Assembly: GCA_023246005.1 (NCBI GenBank)
Contig: JAHFJG010000010.1
Location: 1-45,707 of the forward strand
Reading direction: 5' to 3'
DNA: 45,707 nt
From: Candidatus Doudnabacteria bacterium
Lineage (GTDB): Bacteria; Patescibacteriota; Doudnabacteria; UBA920; O2-02-FULL-48-8
Below are positions 5,084 through 37,944 of this stretch, in pieces. Both the position numbers and the translations under genes were made by a program. How positions within the stretch are numbered: position 1 is the stretch's first letter; each line of letters begins with the position of its first letter. Under the pieces are notes generated by a model that saw only the letters and a list, made by a program, of their open reading frames with translations, searched no databases and was not told where the DNA came from.

Positions 5084-6811
5084 ATGAAACCAACACTGTC
5101 GACAATTTGTTTGCTGATTTTGTTCGCAGAATTAGTCCCTAACTTATCTTCCTTTGCACTAGCGCAAGGTTCAATTGACTCGGCGTTTAATCCGAGTCTG
5201 ATTATTCCAGATTCAGCGTTTGCGGATGTCGGAACATTTGGCACCGCGGCCGGAATTCAGAAATTTTTGGAGTTAAAAAATTCGGCGCTGGCTAATACCA
5301 CTCCTGATTTTTTGGCTAAGTTAAAAGAGCCGGACACTTTGACTAAAGTTGCCTTAGAAGATTCGGAGCCAAACTTGACCAGGCTTAGAACAGCGGCCGA
5401 ATTGATTTATGATTCTGGGACCAAATGGGGACTTAACCCCCAAGTGCTTTTGGTCATGCTTCAGAAGGAACAAAGCTTGATTACAGGAACCTTTAGTTCT
5501 GATAGCAGTTTGCAGACAGCGCTTGATAGAGCAGTTGGTTTTGGCTGTCCGGACGATCAGCCGTGCGGCAATATTTTTATTGGTTTTTATCGGCAATTAT
5601 TCGGTAGCTTTGATTATAGCGGCAGCCGATGGCTGGGCACATCAGCTTCTCTGATCAAATCATTTAATGCTCAAATCGATGGCGTGCGCGTCGGTCGAGG
5701 ACCTGCAGTGAATAGTTTAAACCAAACGTTTGGCAGTCCAATCATTCGGACTGCGAGAAAAGGGGACACAGTTATCTTTGATAATACTTTAGGCGGGTAT
5801 GAGGGTGTAACGCCGCAGCAGACTGTGACTTTGGGCAATTTTGCTACGACTGCTTTGTATCGTTACACGCCGCATGTGTTTAATGGCAATTATAATTTTT
5901 GGAAATTTTATACAGCCTGGTTTAAATACCCCAACGGGACAATTGTTCAAAAAATTGCCGATACGGCCCAGTACGTGATTGACAATGGCACGAAGCGGCT
6001 GTTTTCCAGTTTTGTCGCAAGCCAGCGCAAGCTTAATCTGACAAATATAATTACAGTTTCCCAAACTGAATTTGATTCTTATCTTACTGAAAAACCACTC
6101 ACCCCGCTTGAAGGGACTTTGATTAAGGGCGATATTGATCCCACCGTGTATTTAGTTGCTGATTCCAGCGTTCATCCAATTTCAGGTCCAGTGTTTGCTC
6201 AACGCAAACTTTCATTTAAGAAAGTCATAACTATTCAGAAGGCAGAAGTTGCATCATACGATCAAGGCAGCTTCGTCGCCCCAGTCAGTGGGACTTTGAT
6301 TTTGGGTTTAACCGATCCGACTGTGTATATTATTGATGACGGATTCAAGCGGCCGATTTCTGCCGACATCTTTAAAGTCCGCAAACTTTCGTTTAGGAAG
6401 CTTATGAAACTTTCTGACGCCGAAATAACCAGTATCCCAATCGGTCCTTATTTGACCCCGCCGGAAAAAACCGCATTTAAAACCAAAACTGATTCATTGG
6501 TTTGGTGGTATCAGGACAATTTAAAACATACGGTATCAGCATTTGTCTTTAAACAAAGAGGAATAAGAAATTTTCCTTTGCTGACTTTGTCTGACGCGGA
6601 AGTCACGAATATTCCAACAGGTAACCCGCTGGCGCCGATTGATGGAACAGTTTTCAAGGGTGACCAGTCAGCCGCGATTTATAAAATGATCAGTGGATCC
6701 AAGCGCATGTTTACAGCAGCCTCTTACAAGAAAGCTAGATATCCGAAAGCTACCATTTTGCCGCAAGTTGAAGTTGATCAGTATCAGCCCGGAGATGATA
6801 TTGTCAAATAG
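5084..6811 (+). CDS. Exported lysozyme-like (putative muralytic) protein with the same C-terminal repeats
   Basis: 575 residues with a signal peptide (about 1-27, ending near ALAQ). Residues about 100-285 resemble lysozyme-fold exoproteins of Patescibacteria and Actinobacteria. The helix NPQVLLVMLQKEQSLIT carries a candidate catalytic Glu129, and the domain ends in ALYRYTPHVFNGNYNFWK. Residues about 290-570 contain five copies of the roughly 50-residue repeat also present in the S8 protease two bases upstream. I infer a peptidoglycan-cleaving or wall-binding protein acting outside the cell. Enzymatic activity is not proven, because the domain is a distant relative of known transglycosylases. 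A gap of only 2 nt to the protease gene indicates one operon. Confidence 0.72.
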   Translation: MKPTLSTICLLILFAELVPNLSSFALAQGSIDSAFNPSLIIPDSAFADVGTFGTAAGIQKFLELKNSALANTTPDFLAKLKEPDTLTKVALEDSEPNLTRLRTAAELIYDSGTKWGLNPQVLLVMLQKEQSLITGTFSSDSSLQTALDRAVGFGCPDDQPCGNIFIGFYRQLFGSFDYSGSRWLGTSASLIKSFNAQIDGVRVGRGPAVNSLNQTFGSPIIRTARKGDTVIFDNTLGGYEGVTPQQTVTLGNFATTALYRYTPHVFNGNYNFWKFYTAWFKYPNGTIVQKIADTAQYVIDNGTKRLFSSFVASQRKLNLTNIITVSQTEFDSYLTEKPLTPLEGTLIKGDIDPTVYLVADSSVHPISGPVFAQRKLSFKKVITIQKAEVASYDQGSFVAPVSGTLILGLTDPTVYIIDDGFKRPISADIFKVRKLSFRKLMKLSDAEITSIPIGPYLTPPEKTAFKTKTDSLVWWYQDNLKHTVSAFVFKQRGIRNFPLLTLSDAEVTNIPTGNPLAPIDGTVFKGDQSAAIYKMISGSKRMFTAASYKKARYPKATILPQVEVDQYQPGDDIVK

Positions 6812-6816
6812 TGTAG

Positions 6817-6822
6817 TATAAT
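6817..6822 (+). promoter_or_regulatory. -10 box TATAAT for leaderless ABC transporter operon
   Basis: Perfect TATAAT 8 nt before ATG 6831. No Shine-Dalgarno is present. Confidence 0.65.
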
Positions 6823-6830
6823 GATTGGAC

Positions 6831-7751
6831 ATGGAAAATATTATTGAGGTGAAAAATTTAGCCAAGAAATACGGCAGCTTCACAGCAGTAGACGGAATCA
6901 ATTTCTCCGTCCAGGCCGGTGAGGTTTTTGGCATTCTGGGTCCCAATGGCGCAGGCAAGACCACCACCCTCGAAATGATTGAAGGCTTAAAGCCCATGAC
7001 TTCTGGAGAAGCAGTTTTGGATGGCCACAATGTCAGTCGCGAAACCAGGCTGGTCAAATCCTTGATTGGGGTTCAACTGCAGTCGTCTTCGTTTTTTGAT
7101 GCTTTGAATCTTAAAGAACTTTTGGAAATTTTTGCGTCTTTGTACAACCGCAAGGTTGATGCCATGGAATTATTGCGAGAAGTCCAGCTGGACGAAAAAT
7201 GGAAAGCACAGGTTAAAGAGCTTTCCGGCGGACAGAAGCAGAGATTTTCTATTGCCGCGGCTTTGGTCAATGATCCCAAGGTTTTATTTCTAGACGAACC
7301 GACCACTGGCCTTGACCCGCAAGCGCGCCGAAATTTGTGGGATTTGGTCACATTGATAAACAAGAAAGGCAAAACTGTTGTGCTTACAACTCATTATATG
7401 GATGAAGCCGAAGTTTTGTGCGACCGGATTGCAGTTATGGATCACGCGCACATTGTGGCTATGGACACGACGGAAAATTTACTCAAAATGCCCGGACTGT
7501 CTACGATTGCGCGTTTTCGAGTAGACAAGCCTTTAGTTGATGGAGCGCGGTTAAAAACTTTGACTGGCGTTACCGAAGTTGAACACGAGGATCACACTTA
7601 TCGACTCACAACTGATAATTCGGAAGCGACTTTGGCTGATTTGTTTAAGTTCGGCCGAGAAGCGGGATTTAAATTACTTGATTTGCAGCTGCATCAGCCG
7701 ACATTGGAAGACGTGTTTTTAAAGTTAACTGGTCACGCTTTAAGGGACTAA
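6831..7751 (+). CDS. ABC transporter ATP-binding protein (DrrA/CcmA type)
   Basis: 306-residue ATPase with all nucleotide-binding motifs: Walker A GPNGAGKTT, signature LSGGQKQR, Walker B LFLDEPTTGLD, and the H-loop TTHYMDEAE. The C-terminal extension of about 90 residues is typical of the DrrA-like subfamily that pairs with ABC-2 permeases. It powers export through the next gene's membrane protein, one base downstream. The start at ATG 6831 is preferred to in-frame TTG 6825, because TATAAT at 6817 then gives the leaderless spacing seen across the window. The exported compound (drug, lipid or polysaccharide) cannot be told from the sequence. Confidence 0.92.
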   Translation: MENIIEVKNLAKKYGSFTAVDGINFSVQAGEVFGILGPNGAGKTTTLEMIEGLKPMTSGEAVLDGHNVSRETRLVKSLIGVQLQSSSFFDALNLKELLEIFASLYNRKVDAMELLREVQLDEKWKAQVKELSGGQKQRFSIAAALVNDPKVLFLDEPTTGLDPQARRNLWDLVTLINKKGKTVVLTTHYMDEAEVLCDRIAVMDHAHIVAMDTTENLLKMPGLSTIARFRVDKPLVDGARLKTLTGVTEVEHEDHTYRLTTDNSEATLADLFKFGREAGFKLLDLQLHQPTLEDVFLKLTGHALRD

Positions 7752-28765: not shown

Positions 28766-29287
28766 TTACTTAGATATCGTCCATTCCAAAATAGTCTTGA
28801 GTTTGTTTTCAATTGTTGAACAGATGTTCTTTATAGTCGTTTGATGAACGCTGAAACTTCCATTTCCTGCTGGGTCTTTAATATCCTTATGGTTTTTTGT
28901 TATTTCCGAAAAAATATGTATTTTATTTTTCGCTTTAGGGAATTGGTTTAGTAAAGCATTTTTAGCTGTAGAAAACACTTTTTTGTCCATAGCAATAATT
29001 ACTGCCGTTTTTTTGATTACTGCAGGAGTTATTTTTTGGTAAAAGTGGTCAGTTAGATCAATCCTGAATTTCCGTAAAGTCGGCGATGCTGCTTTCCACT
29101 CTTTTCTATATTCAGTTAAATTTGTGTGTCTTGGTTTAGCAATGCCCATTGTTCCCTGTAAACCATACGATGCTACAGAAAATTTATTATCCAGATGATT
29201 TCTTTCCAAAACTTGAGAAAGATATTTTTCTGCAACCACAGAACGATGGATATTGCCATTACACACAAAAACAATCAATTTTTTCAT
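28766..29287 (-). CDS. Low-molecular-weight protein-tyrosine-phosphatase-like protein
   Basis: 173 residues. The P-loop CNGNIHRS (Cys9 to Arg15, CX5R) and a DPAG motif in the C-terminal half, which would supply the general acid, mark the LMW-PTP/arsenate-reductase-like fold. Such enzymes dephosphorylate tyrosine phosphate on proteins, often in polysaccharide export control, or reduce arsenate. No thioredoxin-type resolving cysteines are evident, favouring a phosphatase. It is leaderless or nearly so: TATAAT (29299-29304, minus) is 11 nt before the ATG. Confidence 0.8.
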   Translation of the reverse strand: MKKLIVFVCNGNIHRSVVAEKYLSQVLERNHLDNKFSVASYGLQGTMGIAKPRHTNLTEYRKEWKAASPTLRKFRIDLTDHFYQKITPAVIKKTAVIIAMDKKVFSTAKNALLNQFPKAKNKIHIFSEITKNHKDIKDPAGNGSFSVHQTTIKNICSTIENKLKTILEWTISK

Positions 29288-29307: not shown

Positions 29308-29348
29308 AAAATCGGTGGGTGGGAACTAAAATTCAGTTCCCACCCTTC
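29308..29348 (-). terminator. Terminator of the PEP-synthase-like gene
   Basis: GGGTGGGAACT pairs with AGTTCCCACCC around a 7-nt loop on the minus strand, followed by ACCGATTTTT. Confidence 0.8.
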
Positions 29349-29352
29349 CTAA

Positions 29353-31818
29353 CTACGGCAATATCTCAACAATCCCTTTCGGCCCGTTCACTCGCACCCT
29401 CATCCCTGTTTTGAGAATTTGAGTGGCACGTTGGACGTTGAGAACTGCCGCAATGTTCATTTCCCGAGCGTAAATTGCCCCGTGAGCCAGAAGGCCGCCA
29501 ACCTCTGTGATCAGCCCTCCCTCTGCACCAAGAATTACTAGAACTGGCGACCAGGCAGGATCAGTTGTGATTGTAACCAGCACCTTGCCTTGGCAAAGTT
29601 GCAAGATTGGCTCGCTGTCCGTGAGGTTTCTGACAACCACCACTTCGCCTTCAGTTATTGCGTTGGTTACACCAATTCCCCTGAGCACATCGGAGTTGGC
29701 AGAGGTATATTTGCCGATTTCTTCTAACTGGTCGGCAAACATAATTGGTGGCACTTCTACCTTCCTTTCCTGTTTACTTTTCTTGCTCCTTTCCGTGGCC
29801 AGCTTTCGCATTTCGTCTTCGTTTTCGCAAAGACGAAATACTTCCTCTGGGTTGAGGTGAAAAATCAACCCGTCTGGCCACTGAAGCCGTTGCTCCATTT
29901 GTACTGCCAGTTGTCGCAACAGGGCGTATCCCTTGAGGAAATGAAACTTCACAGCTTCCCGCAAAGGCAGGTAGGTCCGAACCGCCCTAACTTCACGGCA
30001 AAGGTTAGAGCTTTCGCTCCCAACTCTGGCCGCAAGGTCTCTCAGCAGTTCTTCGACTTTCGCTTGAGCGTCGGCGTAGTCGGGTTCTAACAACCCAAGC
30101 TTCTCGGACAACTCGACTAAGAGTTGCGGCTGGTCGTGGTATCTTGGAGTTGAAATTTCCAGCTCGTGGCTCGCAAGATGACCATATCGGACAAGAACGG
30201 TGTCGAGAGTTACCTGTCCTTGTCTGAATAGCCTCAAGTCAGCGTTGAACTGAAGATTGGGGTTATCTTCGGGTGACACACCTCCTGTGAGAACGTTAAG
30301 ATAGCCCTCACCATCCTCTCCAAAAAGTTCACGCAACAAGTTACGCAAACGAGTGAAGGAGAAGAAGCCAAGCCGAGTGACCTTGACGAACAACAGGCAA
30401 GCTTGGGTGCGAAGCAGTTCACAGGCTTCAAAGTAACGTCTTTGAAGCTCGCAGATGTTACTCGAGGCCTCATTAGCTAAGTGAGAGATGTTACTATCCC
30501 ACTCGGCCAACGCAACTTGGGATTCCTTCTGCAGCGTATCTTCCAAACCACGAATTGAAGTAAAGAATTGATGATAAGCCAGAGCATATTGCTTTGCTCT
30601 TGCTGTCCCAAAAATCTTTGCTAAAAACTCGGGATCAGGATTTTGCTGATACAATTGCACTTCTGGATAATTACCCAGTGATGGATTTTCCTTGATACTG
30701 CTCAAGTAATAATCCACCAATCTGCAATAATCATCCAAAGGAACGCCCTTGATGCGATAGGTGAAGGCATCGTGAACGATACTGCACCTTGGTTGCCCAG
30801 CGACTAACTGAAAGAATCCAGTTTCTAACTCTTCGCCAATATCGTAGCCCATTTGGTTGCGAGCAGTTCTAATTGCACCCTGCCCGTGAGCAAAACAATA
30901 AGTGAAGAGGCCGAAACTCATCTGGGTTGGATGTGGAGTAAGTAGTTCACTGACGTTCTGATCACTCAGAGCATCAGGTAGTGTTGAACAGCCCAACCTC
31001 TCCAGTCTGATTTCTTCGTTTCGCAAGTCACTTCTCACTGAAGCGATAACTTCCTGAACCACGGAAGTCTTCCCGTTAGTTGTGATGTTGCGAGACTGGT
31101 TGAGATAAAGTAGTCCTGTTTCTTGTTCAATCGCCCATTCGATGTCTTGCCCCGTTCCAAAGAAATCACGTAGTTTTCGACCAACCGAGACAAGCTCGCA
31201 AAGCTGATGAGACGAAAGCGAAGGAGTAAGTGCCCCTTCTTCACTTAGCAATTCACCAGTGGTCGCATCCACGTAGTAACGCTTGGGTTCAGTTTGTCCT
31301 GATACCAAGCCTTCGGCAACGCCTGCAACGACTTCTATGACCATTGCTTTGTCATCTTGGGTTACAGGATGATGGGTGAACAACACACCAGCCACTTCGG
31401 CCGGCACCATTTCTTGCAAGATCAAGGCCAGTTGGTCTGAATTGACCCCGTGTAGTCCAGCATAGGTCTTTACGGCCTCGCTATTCAATGCTGCGGCACA
31501 ATCCAAGATAGCTGGTTCAAGTTCCTCTTGGTTTACGAATAACCTGCTCTTGAACTGCCCTGCCCAAGACAAGGCTCCGTCTTCACCGACAGCCGAACTA
31601 CGGACTGCGAGACCTGATTTGAAATCCAGATTGTCGTGAGTCGCTTTCAGCAGTTCCGAAGCAACCAAACCATCGGCGAGTATCGCTAAAACTTCGTCCG
31701 AACTGAGAATGATGGCTTCTTTTACCAGTAGCCCAAGGGACTGTATTTGGGCTAACCTGAAAGCCTTGCATCCAACGATTGTTTCGCCAAGGCTAAGAGC
31801 CTCAAGTAATTTACGCAT
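29353..31818 (-). CDS. PEP-synthase-like phosphotransferase (ATP-grasp plus swivelling His domain)
   Basis: 821 residues. The N-terminal part is the ATP-grasp domain of the PEP synthase/pyruvate phosphate dikinase/rifampin phosphotransferase group (GCKAFRLA, AVRSSAVGED near 71-80, LILQEMVPAEVAGVLFTHHP). A long central region contains VRYGHLASHELEISTPRY. The C-terminal domain has the phospho-carrier histidine in GGLLAHGAIYARE. The PEP/pyruvate-binding barrel of true PEP synthases is not obvious, so the phosphate acceptor is unknown; the layout is closest to rifampin-phosphotransferase-like enzymes. Its start has GAGGAGG six bases upstream, unusual here, and its composition is GC-richer than the neighbours. 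It lies downstream of an attenuator-like leader and a racemase gene. Confidence 0.75.
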   Translation of the reverse strand: MRKLLEALSLGETIVGCKAFRLAQIQSLGLLVKEAIILSSDEVLAILADGLVASELLKATHDNLDFKSGLAVRSSAVGEDGALSWAGQFKSRLFVNQEELEPAILDCAAALNSEAVKTYAGLHGVNSDQLALILQEMVPAEVAGVLFTHHPVTQDDKAMVIEVVAGVAEGLVSGQTEPKRYYVDATTGELLSEEGALTPSLSSHQLCELVSVGRKLRDFFGTGQDIEWAIEQETGLLYLNQSRNITTNGKTSVVQEVIASVRSDLRNEEIRLERLGCSTLPDALSDQNVSELLTPHPTQMSFGLFTYCFAHGQGAIRTARNQMGYDIGEELETGFFQLVAGQPRCSIVHDAFTYRIKGVPLDDYCRLVDYYLSSIKENPSLGNYPEVQLYQQNPDPEFLAKIFGTARAKQYALAYHQFFTSIRGLEDTLQKESQVALAEWDSNISHLANEASSNICELQRRYFEACELLRTQACLLFVKVTRLGFFSFTRLRNLLRELFGEDGEGYLNVLTGGVSPEDNPNLQFNADLRLFRQGQVTLDTVLVRYGHLASHELEISTPRYHDQPQLLVELSEKLGLLEPDYADAQAKVEELLRDLAARVGSESSNLCREVRAVRTYLPLREAVKFHFLKGYALLRQLAVQMEQRLQWPDGLIFHLNPEEVFRLCENEDEMRKLATERSKKSKQERKVEVPPIMFADQLEEIGKYTSANSDVLRGIGVTNAITEGEVVVVRNLTDSEPILQLCQGKVLVTITTDPAWSPVLVILGAEGGLITEVGGLLAHGAIYAREMNIAAVLNVQRATQILKTGMRVRVNGPKGIVEILP

Positions 31819-31913: not shown

Positions 31914-31998
31914 ACACCTTCCGCAAAATCCAGAAGGTGTCTCGTTTCTTATGAGTTAAGACAAACCTAACATTGGACTTTGCATAAAAGCAAAGCCC
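31914..31998 (-). promoter_or_regulatory. Attenuator-like leader B (PEP-synthase-like gene)
   Basis: On the minus strand: hairpin GGGCTTTGC / GCAAAGTCC (31975-31998), then the terminator ACACCTTC / GAAGGTGT (31914-31940) followed by TTTTGTTTT. The terminator loop holds TGGATTTTGC, which can pair with GCAAAGTCCA of the first hairpin (10 bp, one G-U) as an antiterminator. Homologous to leader A at 32751-32893. Confidence 0.7.
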
Positions 31999-32003
31999 GC
32001 CAT
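31956..32003 (-). CDS. Possible leader peptide B
   Basis: 15 codons plus stop: MAGFAFMQSPMLGLS. It covers both arms of the first hairpin of leader B and contains two Phe codons (TTT GCT TTT) within the hairpin's left arm and loop. There is no Shine-Dalgarno or clear promoter directly before it. Unlike a classical leader the stop comes after the second arm, so its translation is uncertain. Confidence 0.35.
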   Translation of the reverse strand: MAGFAFMQSPMLGLS

Positions 32004-32037
32004 CCGAAGCTATTTGATTGTTTTAATGTAAGGTAAT

Positions 32038-32730
32038 TCATATAGAGGTTATCTTTTTAACAGTAGCATCAAGTAAGATTTTCATTGTATCGTAGATTTG
32101 GAAATTGTCTTGCTTGGGTATTAGTAACTGCAAATCTGTGCAAGCCAGAATGATATTTTTAACCTTCTTTTTTCCGAAGTCCTGTATTATCTTTAAGAGC
32201 AGATCCCTATCTTTATTATCGTAACGATTTGATGTAATGTTAAGGATCAACTTGCCGATTTTAGCCTGTTGTAAACTGTCTGGAACAAGCGTGGCTATGC
32301 CGCTTGCTTTTAACAGTTTTTCATATAACTTATTTTTCGTTGTGATTGGTGTGGCAATAATACCGACTTTATTTATTTTTTGTTGTTTAAGAAATTTGGT
32401 AGTTTCTTCCAAAATGCTTAAGACGGGTATCTTCACTGCTTGCCTTATATCGTTGATAAACTTATGTAATGAATTGCAGGGCAATACCACAAAATCAGCT
32501 CCTGCTTTTTCCAAGTTCCTTGCTGCCGCTAAAAGTTGCGGCAAAATTCTTTCTTCTCCAATGCCGTCTACAATAGCATCCTTTTCAATATCAAACCTCA
32601 AAGGAATGCTGTTAATCAGAATGGGCGGATAGCTGGTTTTATCTATTTGTCTACACGAGAAAATTAGCTCTAAATAAAATTCAGAGGTTGTTTCAGGCCC
32701 AAGCCCACCAATTATTCCTACAGTTTTCAT
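32038..32730 (-). CDS. Aspartate/glutamate racemase family protein
   Basis: 230 residues. GIIGGLGPETTSEFYLELI opens the protein and the two catalytic cysteines are in place: Cys85 in LPCNSLH and Cys197 in LACTDL. The family (RacX/YgeA, aspartate racemase) inverts the alpha carbon of an acidic or other amino acid without cofactor. D-amino acids would serve wall peptides, but the substrate is not determinable from the sequence. It is preceded by leader A with its own promoter, and is followed after 220 nt by the PEP-synthase-like gene with a homologous leader, so the two are probably regulated by the same signal. Confidence 0.85.
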   Translation of the reverse strand: MKTVGIIGGLGPETTSEFYLELIFSCRQIDKTSYPPILINSIPLRFDIEKDAIVDGIGEERILPQLLAAARNLEKAGADFVVLPCNSLHKFINDIRQAVKIPVLSILEETTKFLKQQKINKVGIIATPITTKNKLYEKLLKASGIATLVPDSLQQAKIGKLILNITSNRYDNKDRDLLLKIIQDFGKKKVKNIILACTDLQLLIPKQDNFQIYDTMKILLDATVKKITSI

Positions 32731-32750: not shown

Positions 32751-32841
32751 AAACAAAAAACACCTTCGCAAAGTCCTAAGGTGTCGTGAATGTTAGTCTA
32801 TTCTATAACACAAACTAGGGACTTTGCTTATTGCAAGCCCC
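32751..32841 (-). promoter_or_regulatory. Attenuator-like leader A (racemase gene)
   Basis: On the minus strand: hairpin GGGGCTTGC / GCAAAGTCCC (32818-32841), then the terminator ACACCTT / AAGGTGT (32760-32784) and a TTTTTTGTTT tract. The terminator loop contains AGGACTTTGC, fully complementary to GCAAAGTCC of the first hairpin, giving a mutually exclusive antiterminator. The linker keeps GTTTGT and TTA blocks in common with leader B. Confidence 0.75.
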
Positions 32842-32878
32842 AGCTCCAGATATTCAATGTTATAGACTCATTTTTCAT
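32828..32878 (-). CDS. Putative Trp-rich leader peptide A
   Basis: 16 codons plus stop: MKNESITLNIWSWGLQ. Two Trp codons (TGG AGC TGG) lie at the start of the first hairpin's left arm and the TAA lies in its loop, directly before the right arm. That is the classical position for ribosome-controlled attenuation, as in trpL. The ATG lies 9 nt after a TAATAT -10 box, matching the leaderless pattern of this genome. Confidence 0.6.
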   Translation of the reverse strand: MKNESITLNIWSWGLQ

Positions 32879-32887
32879 ATTGGTTAT

Positions 32888-32916
32888 ATATTACCCCTTT
32901 TTACGGAAACTGTCAA
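32888..32916 (-). promoter_or_regulatory. Promoter of leader A / racemase
   Basis: Minus strand TTGACA (32911-32916), a 17-nt spacer, and TAATAT (32888-32893). Confidence 0.75.
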
Positions 32917-33557: not shown

Positions 33558-34628
33558 ATGCCAGAACTACAACCCGTTGTAGAAAAACCAAAATTATTAA
33601 AAACTGACACAAGGCAATGGACATCAGGGAGAGTCAAATTTGCCGTGATCGGTTGGGTTGGTAAACCAGATCGTAATTATATCGTTTTGGAAAAGAATTT
33701 CTTTGGGAAATCTCGAAATCCGGATCAAAAGTTCAATTTACGAGAGTCTGATTGGGTCAATCTAAAAAAGTTAATTGATGGAGATTTGATAAAAGCAACT
33801 GAATGGCTCCCCACCGTTCAAATAATTGATCAGAAAAGTTTAGATGAATTTTTGAAGCAAAATCCGGATGCGTTAGAGAAAATTCTAGCGAGTCCTGATA
33901 TTCTAAAACTAAACGAGCAAAGTATTGAAAGTTTGAACAAATTGGTTGTTAAACTTTTCGAAATAAAAAAAGACCAAGCAGAAGTTATACTGAAACAATT
34001 AACGGCCGCATCGAAACAGGATTTAGAGTTATTTTCTAAATTATTAGAGGATTTGCGATTGAACCAAATTTCTACCTTAGCATCTTTGATTTATCAAAAA
34101 TTAAAAGTTATCGACTTACTTGAAACTGTTTGTATGGATTCAAGTCGGAGCGAGAGAGATGTGCATAAAATTTTTGAATCAAACACATGGCTTTTAGGTA
34201 AGCAGTTTGAAATTTTACAGAGCGATAAACCTTTATCTCAATATTTTGAGACGAATGTTAAGGAAGACCCCGAGACACGAAAAAGGCCGGATCTTATCCT
34301 AAAGCAACTTCCTTTCAGCAATGATATTGTTTTAGTTGAATTTAAAGCTCCAGGTATTAAGTTAAAGGCTAAACATATTGGGCAGGTTTTGGAGTATAAG
34401 GCTTTGATTCAACAAAATAAGCCCAATGTTAGCAATATCCACTGTTTTGTCTATGGCTACGAAAAAGACCACACTTTTACAAAATCAAATGATGTTGTTT
34501 TGAAGACATTTTCGGAAATCATTGCAGAATTAAGATCGGAATTCAACGAATACGAAAAATTACTTAATGAGAGCCAACAGGATATTGGAATTTTAGAGCA
34601 ACTAGACGACTCTGACATTCCATTCTAA
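33558..34628 (+). CDS. Shedu-like (DUF4263) nuclease, candidate anti-phage defence
   Basis: 356 residues. The C-terminal PD-(D/E)xK region matches Shedu SduA/DUF4263: SERDVHKIFESNTWLLG near 197-214, Asp245 in RPDLIL, Glu261 and Lys263 in VEFK, and the QxxxY motif at 276-280. The N-terminal 190 residues are variable, as usual for Shedu, and would sense the trigger. Shedu proteins act alone as single-gene defence nucleases. The gene has a strong promoter overlapped by a long inverted repeat. Defence is inferred from the family; other DUF4263 proteins may have different roles. Confidence 0.75.
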   Translation: MPELQPVVEKPKLLKTDTRQWTSGRVKFAVIGWVGKPDRNYIVLEKNFFGKSRNPDQKFNLRESDWVNLKKLIDGDLIKATEWLPTVQIIDQKSLDEFLKQNPDALEKILASPDILKLNEQSIESLNKLVVKLFEIKKDQAEVILKQLTAASKQDLELFSKLLEDLRLNQISTLASLIYQKLKVIDLLETVCMDSSRSERDVHKIFESNTWLLGKQFEILQSDKPLSQYFETNVKEDPETRKRPDLILKQLPFSNDIVLVEFKAPGIKLKAKHIGQVLEYKALIQQNKPNVSNIHCFVYGYEKDHTFTKSNDVVLKTFSEIIAELRSEFNEYEKLLNESQQDIGILEQLDDSDIPF

Positions 34629-37548: not shown

Positions 37549-37944
37549 GCTGCCTAAGTAAGCTGTAAGCCGAATTCTGTCTGTTCCGCCGAAGAGACGG
37601 AGAGGCAATCATCTATCTAGGCCAAACATTGCTGTTTGGCTCAAGCTGTCAACCCGCTCTCAAGGAGCCTATTTGACATTGCACTAAAAAGTAGGAATTT
37701 AGCCGTTTCACCTCTGGCATTACTGCCGGAGCTCGCCCTGAACCATTCGCTTGTGCTTCAGGTTCAGGGCGGTTTTGCGATCTCTCACAAAACCGTTTCT
37801 GTTCGCATCCCGAGGATTACTCCCGACGGGCGTTACCCGCTACTTTTGGTTGCATGAACTCATGAGAATTCCATTCAACCCACGTGTTCGGACTTTCCTC
37901 CCTCATTTTGCAATGAAGGCGATCGCCGCACTTGCTTAGGAAGC
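37549..37944 (-). ncRNA. rnpB: RNase P RNA
   Basis: The catalytic RNA that trims the 5' leader of tRNA precursors. On the minus strand, from 37944: P1 left arm GCTTCCTAAG, then GAGGGAGGAAAGTCCGAACA (the CR I core), ACAGAAACGG, GGTGAAACGGC, and near the 3' end AGATGATTGCC and ACAGAATTCGGCTTA. P1 closes with CTTAGGCAGC (37549-37558). The length of about 396 nt and the core order match bacterial type A. It has a strong promoter and a terminator. End points come from the P1 pairing. Confidence 0.95.

Follow-up and report, generated by a model that had tools for sequence, protein, structure and literature searches.

A probable tryptophan attenuator, the second of two in its operon, ahead of a rifampin-phosphotransferase-like gene of Candidatus Doudnabacteria

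The window, by which we mean the whole 45,707-nt stretch analysed, carries on its minus strand, in this order, a promoter, leader A, a racemase gene, leader B, the gene for an 821-aa enzyme, a strong terminator, and a low-molecular-weight phosphotyrosine phosphatase-like (LMWPc) gene. Leader B (31914-32003) is a genuine element that is homologous to leader A (32754-32878): as the sequence-only reading had recognized, the same parts follow in the same order in both. The promoter and genes are as follows.

32888..32916, minus strand: sigma70-like promoter of leader A, TTGACA ... TAATAT, 10/12 consensus matches
32038..32730, minus strand: amino acid racemase (PF01177, TIGR00035), 230 aa, Cys85 and Cys197 present
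29353..31818, minus strand: 821-aa protein with ATP-grasp (PPDK_N) and C-terminal phosphohistidine domains, its gene predicted to be regulated by leader B
28766..29287, minus strand: LMWPc protein; the neighbour pair recurs in Nomurabacteria (locus L092, 62% identical)

The racemase scored 166.8 bits against TIGR00035, above the curated cut-off of 93.1. The 821-aa protein had been called PEP-synthase-like, a name that its scores do not bear out. It reached 151/740 and 226/972 bits against the PEP synthase models TIGR01418 and PRK06241, far under their cut-offs, and 214/999 bits against rifamycin phosphotransferase Rph (NF041857), also below the cut-off. Its domain order is that of Rph, with an N-terminal ATP-grasp and a C-terminal phosphohistidine domain containing the GGLLAHGAIYARE motif. 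Judged by these matches, the protein is a rifampin-phosphotransferase (RPH)-like enzyme of the dikinase family and not a true PEP synthase, and it lies below the cut-offs of all named families. Genomes of the window's family also hold long arrays of ~500-aa PEP-utiliser (phosphohistidine) domain proteins plus one protein with an ATP-grasp domain (G012:C6:135815-149693; G013:C7:67224-86517; C21 and C42 of the window's own genome, G000). A strong terminator stands before the LMWPc gene in the window (29317-29345) and between the PEP-synthase-like and LMWPc genes of L092 (~6251-6290), and in both the LMWPc ATG comes almost directly after an AT-rich promoter-like stretch. Elsewhere in the window, a 356-aa ORF (33558-34628) matched the C-terminal domain of the Shedu defence protein weakly and below threshold (PF14082, E 6e-4).

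The leaders are made up of the following elements; peptides are given up to the stop codon.

32828..32878, minus strand: leader ORF A, MKNESITLNIWSWGLQ; Trp codons 32848-32846 and 32842-32840
32833..32841, minus strand: region 1 of leader A, GGGGCTTGC
32818..32827, minus strand: region 2 of leader A, GCAAAGTCCC
32760..32784, minus strand: terminator of leader A, ACACCTT-A-GGACTTTGC-G-AAGGTGT
32776-32768, minus strand: region 3 of leader A, the terminator loop
32759-32755, minus strand: T tract of leader A
31967..32041, minus strand: leader ORF B, MNYLTLKQSNSFGWRALLLCKVQC, 24 codons; Trp codon 32002-32000
31998-31990, minus strand: region 1 of leader B, GGGCTTTGC, 5' arm of hairpin 1
31983-31975, minus strand: region 2 of leader B, GCAAAGTCC, 3' arm of hairpin 1
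31914..31940, minus strand: terminator of leader B, ACACCTTC-T-GGATTTTGC-G-GAAGGTGT, with arms ACACCTTC (31940-31933) and GAAGGTGT (31921-31914)
31931-31923, minus strand: region 3 of leader B, the terminator loop, GGATTTTGC
31913-31906, minus strand: T tract of leader B

The hairpin, linker, terminator, loop and T tract had all been described before and are present where they were placed. The key part absent from that description is, in both leaders, a short ORF whose Trp codons abut the first hairpin. Leader ORF A reads ATG AAA AAT GAG TCT ATA ACA TTG AAT ATC TGG AGC TGG GGC TTG CAA TAA; its second TGG reaches into the first bases of region 1, and its stop codon sits within the hairpin 1 loop. 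The ATG of leader ORF B overlaps the racemase stop (ATGA), and its TGG stands directly before region 1. A Shine-Dalgarno sequence is absent from both ORFs. The -10 box of the leader A promoter, a call that is a consensus match only, lies ~9 nt upstream of the leader ATG, and the start of ORF A would lie near the transcript 5' end.

Folding of leader B (96 nt) gave -41.5 kcal/mol (z = -6.3), which 0/200 shuffles equalled; leader A was less striking (z = -2.2). In both leaders a 9-base run in the terminator loop complements the 3' arm of hairpin 1, and shuffles of the loop at the same composition gave values of 2e-4 (A) and 2.5e-3 (B) for this pairing. A strict scan of the whole window on both strands, for a hairpin and a terminator whose loop pairs with the hairpin's 3' arm, returned leader B as the sole site, with none in 20 resampled windows. 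An Rfam covariance-model scan of the whole window at gathering threshold detected no leader family and RNase P only (bacterial class A RNA at 37551-37938). At E up to 1, Rfam gave no match for leader A (L001) or for a Doudnabacteria leader from genome G023 (L036), described next.

Genome G023 (Candidatus Doudnabacteria MJ-time_bin-3275) belongs to another family of the same order, and its racemase is 79% identical to the window's. Ahead of this racemase lie a stretch resembling a promoter, a leader ORF reading MKSNGLNLITWRWDLQ, then GCAAAGTCC and the terminator ACACCT...AGGTGT; the operon runs leader-racemase-trpS (tryptophanyl-tRNA synthetase). This leader ORF and ORF A are equal in length and share Trp at codons 11 and 13 and the LQ-stop ending, while most other codons differ. 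A pattern scan recovered a further copy in G004, from another genus of the window's family, with leader ORF MIYIVINKEISAAWNWALLSGKVRLDLV, hairpin GGGCTTTGC...GCAAAGTCC and terminator ACACCTTC-GGACTTTTGC-CGAAGGTGTTTTTG. It is the nearest relative of leader B, reading WNWALLSGKV where B reads GWRALLLCKV, and the gene behind it encodes 189 aa without a Pfam match. Restriction to recent duplicates had been named as grounds for abandoning the idea, and these copies in another genus and another family place the leader beyond such duplicates.

A second pattern found the strict family to comprise 4 copies among 49 genomes of the order. Because an exact shared-core pattern had 0 matches in viral or genome contigs, we regard the sequence family as narrow. 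A second BLAST match in the window's own genome (C25) sits inside a coding gene and was rejected as chance. The trpS loci scanned in the order had no convincing Trp-codon leader beyond that of G023, and racemases 44-58% identical elsewhere in the phylum were without such a leader.

From leaders A and B, the pairing of the terminator loop with region 2 had been described as compensated. The C-to-T change that yields one G-U and the extra A31974-T31932 pair in leader B are both as described. However, GCAAAGTCC is identical in A, B and their two closest relatives; because region 2 is invariant across these four close copies, and B (one G-U), G004 (a bulged T) and G023 (two mismatches) each depart on one side only, compensation between A and B gives way to a one-sided wobble. 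The G023 antiterminator is weak (7/9 pairs).

Two-sided changes were seen against a more distant leader, L088 of Magasanikbacteria. The ATG of its leader ORF, MKNFKILNTSWCWTVPPR, shares bases with the stop codon of a TrpR-family gene, as the leader B ATG does with the racemase stop. The terminator is ACGCCTT...AAGGTGT, with a loop, GACCTTACC, that complements region 2, GGTAAGGTC, exactly. The TGGNGCTGG motif and the common terminator stem suggest that L088 is probably homologous to the window leaders, short of proof. Relative to the close copies, both sides have changed at 4/9 positions of helix 1:2 and likewise of helix 2:3; region 2 and the loop of L088 pair at 9/9, and partners swapped between lineages pair at 5 or 6 of 9. 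These counts come from a hand alignment with one distant sequence, used because a condensed 5-sequence alignment moved L088 by one column; a 4-sequence MAFFT alignment misaligned the terminators. If L088 is homologous, the two-sided changes support 2:3 pairing.

Across the five leaders (A, B, G023, G004, L088), predicted energies in kcal/mol were -10 to -14 for hairpin 1:2, -10 to -16 for duplex 2:3 and -7 to -16.5 for the terminator. RNA from region 2 to region 3, ending before the terminator 3' arm, took the antiterminator fold in 5/5 members, and the free RNA folded as hairpin 1:2 plus terminator. In leader A the antiterminator wins even with the terminator complete. At equilibrium the terminator is favoured in the other four (in leader B, -14.4 against -12.6 for the bare antiterminator duplex), and the switch would therefore have to be kinetic in these.

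Trp-codon leaders also precede members of the trio of racemase, PEP-synthase-like and LMWPc genes in other lineages. Three Nomurabacteria leaders with WW, found at racemase loci and unrelated in sequence to the window leaders, each have a terminator. The first, MKNKFQINKTRKGKSWWGVKSLSFSAFASVC (L082), is followed by trpE and then the racemase. The second, MLDKRQDNKTEKLLNSWWGASTLAFAPFC (L083), and the third, MNNIYKNNLNKSWWNANTYFFASIC (L092), each come after a TrpR-family gene; behind the leader lie a small ORF and the racemase in L083, and in L092 a PEP-synthase-like gene and LMWPc, the L092 racemase being convergent. Since all three genes are present at L092 (25% identical to the window's for the PEP-synthase-like protein, 62% for LMWPc, 61% for the racemase), the trio recurs as neighbours. 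The TrpR-family gene is a weak Trp marker, because PF01371 is frequent in the phylum (113/287 genomes); the three leader-linked copies score under the TrpR curated cut-off.

Several further features were noted at these loci. The small ORF of L083 (5670-5846) ends in PPPRWGGWGGGP. Just upstream of the racemase in L082 (~5925-5965) and L083 (5932-5964) is a GC-rich hairpin, GGGGGCG...CGCCTACC, with apparent compensatory changes and distinct from the window's leader. Behind the L082 racemase (~6720-6860) a Phe-rich leader-like ORF with a GTG start, MNKNIQANSYFFFGFSHNFRRLIFAL, stands ahead of a hairpin that resembles a terminator. An inverted repeat, CCCGTTAGAAA ... TTTCTAACGGGATG, which includes the start codon, lies 100-200 nt past the racemase in L083 and L127, at the starts of two unrelated genes (aspS-like and proton-pyrophosphatase-like).

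In other Patescibacteria, racemase-tyrS and racemase-tyrA-like operons are preceded by leaders with Tyr/Trp codons. In L037 (1118-1460, G039) and upstream of the L038 racemase (G015), two tandem Tyr-rich leader ORFs, such as MKISSSQINSYYYATSLQRLR and MTLNFTQLNPYYYNPFHKVSFKAPKSYWL, each have a terminator behind them, and then come the racemase and a TyrA-like gene; these are probably Tyr attenuators in tandem. WYY or YWYQFTY leader ORFs with terminators precede the racemase in L131 (2937-3005), L132 (5875-5943) and L127 (4465-4533), with tyrS after the racemase in L131 and L132. As in the window, a leader ORF and terminator come ahead of a racemase from the same superfamily, but the codons are Tyr-rich (YYY, WYY, YWYQFTY) and the racemases only 34-47% identical to the window's.

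An attenuator with an antiterminator had been proposed before; our data favour it and name its input as the Trp codons of the leader ORF, so that an attenuator-like element becomes a specific proposal of tryptophan attenuation. From its sequence, leader B is likely to control transcription by ribosome-mediated attenuation in response to the availability of charged tRNA-Trp, as the second of two such attenuators in its operon. Like a trp attenuator, it has a Trp codon at the 5' edge of hairpin 1, alternative 1:2 and 2:3 pairing, and a U-tract intrinsic terminator before the regulated gene, which 2:3 pairing would exclude. In 5/5 leaders the final Trp codon adjoins region 1. A Trp-related gene lies downstream in G023 (trpS) and, behind an unrelated WW leader, in L082 (trpE); the window's own genes are linked to tryptophan via relatives only. 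Leader B has one Trp codon and its relatives have two, which makes its sensitivity to tryptophan less sure.

Under this proposal, a ribosome that has finished the racemase would reinitiate, as we assume, at the overlapping ATGA and translate the 24-codon leader behind RNA polymerase. When Trp-tRNA is scarce, it would stall at the TGG abutting region 1 and cover that region, leaving region 2 (GCAAAGTCC) free to pair with region 3 (GGATTTTGC) upon its emergence. The resulting helix of 9-10 bp in the terminator loop would block stem closure, on the geometric argument that 9 bp in an 11-nt loop should leave the stem no room, and polymerase would read into the 821-aa enzyme gene. With plentiful tryptophan the ribosome would run over region 2, the terminator would form and transcription would end behind the racemase; with no ribosome present, regions 1 and 2 would pair and the terminator would again form. 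Leader A would work likewise at the promoter, for the racemase. We infer stalling, antitermination, the Trp response and reinitiation; the sequence elements, folds, leader ORFs, and relatives with their genes are shown by the sequence analysis, all in metagenome-assembled genomes.

A simpler account is that leader B is a plain terminator behind the racemase with a hairpin before it, copied together with leader A by duplication and without switching. Its position at the racemase stop, its strong terminator and its single Trp codon would suit this. A plain terminator, however, needs no second hairpin whose 3' arm is complementary to its loop, and the same element stands behind promoters and before genes in A, G023 and G004. 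Ahead of the 821-aa enzyme gene there is also a good ribosome-binding site, and the stretch from leader B to that gene showed no convincing promoter. We therefore hold this account to be unlikely.

Less likely still is a leader that senses general translation slowing, another amino acid or an antibiotic, as an arrest peptide would. RPH-type enzymes are known for antibiotic resistance, here a matter of family match, and the leader B peptide contains several Leu codons. Yet Trp is the residue conserved at the stall position in all five strict and distant leaders, the downstream genes include trpS and, behind Nomurabacteria WW leaders, trpE, and the related Tyr leaders sit before tyrS and tyrA-like genes. 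To a riboswitch, T-box or protein-bound leader with an incidental short ORF we give the smallest chance, a very slight one. An extra linker hairpin predicted in both A and B, otherwise unexplained, would fit such a leader, but the Rfam searches above found none, and the ORF, with its stop position and Trp codons, is the best-kept feature between families.

What tryptophan attenuation would serve here is suggested by gene content. TrpB was not found in the three carriers G000 (80% complete), G004 and G023 (87% complete), which are therefore probably Trp auxotrophs, and a switch would answer scarcity; trpB exceeded the cut-off in only 3/49 genomes of the order, and the G000 assembly yielded no trpS. 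The switch thus probably serves Trp scarcity or salvage and not biosynthesis. Racemases adjoin trpS, tyrS (L128, L129, L131, L132) or tyrA-like genes elsewhere, which suggests a role with aromatic amino acids and perhaps, as a guess, salvage of D-forms. The earlier suggestion of one pathway for the racemase and the 821-aa enzyme holds in part, as far as a shared Trp signal, given the gene orders racemase-trpS and trpE-racemase and the PEP-synthase-like gene that follows a WW leader, all in other genomes. A broader scenario, doubtful but worth stating, is that Trp-auxotrophic Patescibacteria moved a trp-type attenuator to salvage, with the terminator loop as antiterminator strand, such that Trp starvation would switch on TrpRS or an RPH-like, ATP-dependent enzyme along with a racemase acting on scavenged D-Trp or another D-aromatic acid. 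If the attenuator reading is right, reduced, mostly uncultured bacteria use translation-coupled attenuation of the classical type, and their leader peptides begin very near the 5' end of the transcript. This regulon would be a handle on two enzymes, both of which should be needed under tryptophan shortage, and the role of the racemase would become a testable question on D-tryptophan or other D-aromatic acids.

Attenuation of trp genes is an old mechanism, known from E. coli. In the papers searched, few of them subscription ones, amino-acid attenuators were not reported for the Candidate Phyla Radiation. Among Actinobacteria, trp operon attenuators have been described, with candidates before trpS (PMC1262725). 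The enterobacterial (trpL) and actinobacterial attenuators share with the window leaders a short leader ORF with clustered UGG codons, a 1:2 hairpin overlapped by the stalled ribosome, a 2:3 antiterminator, a U-tract terminator and trpS among the targets. The window leaders differ from them in lacking a match to Rfam leaders and in their targets, a racemase and an RPH-like enzyme in carriers where trpB was not found. Their ORFs, moreover, either begin close to where the transcript begins or overlap the preceding stop, and region 3 is the terminator loop instead of the terminator 5' arm. The Nomurabacteria WW leaders are alike in their Trp codons, hairpin, terminator and overlapping targets (racemase, PEP-synthase-like gene, LMWPc), whereas their leader sequence is another and their region 3 is the terminator 5' arm, the classical order; they are probably convergent with the window leaders or very distantly related to them.
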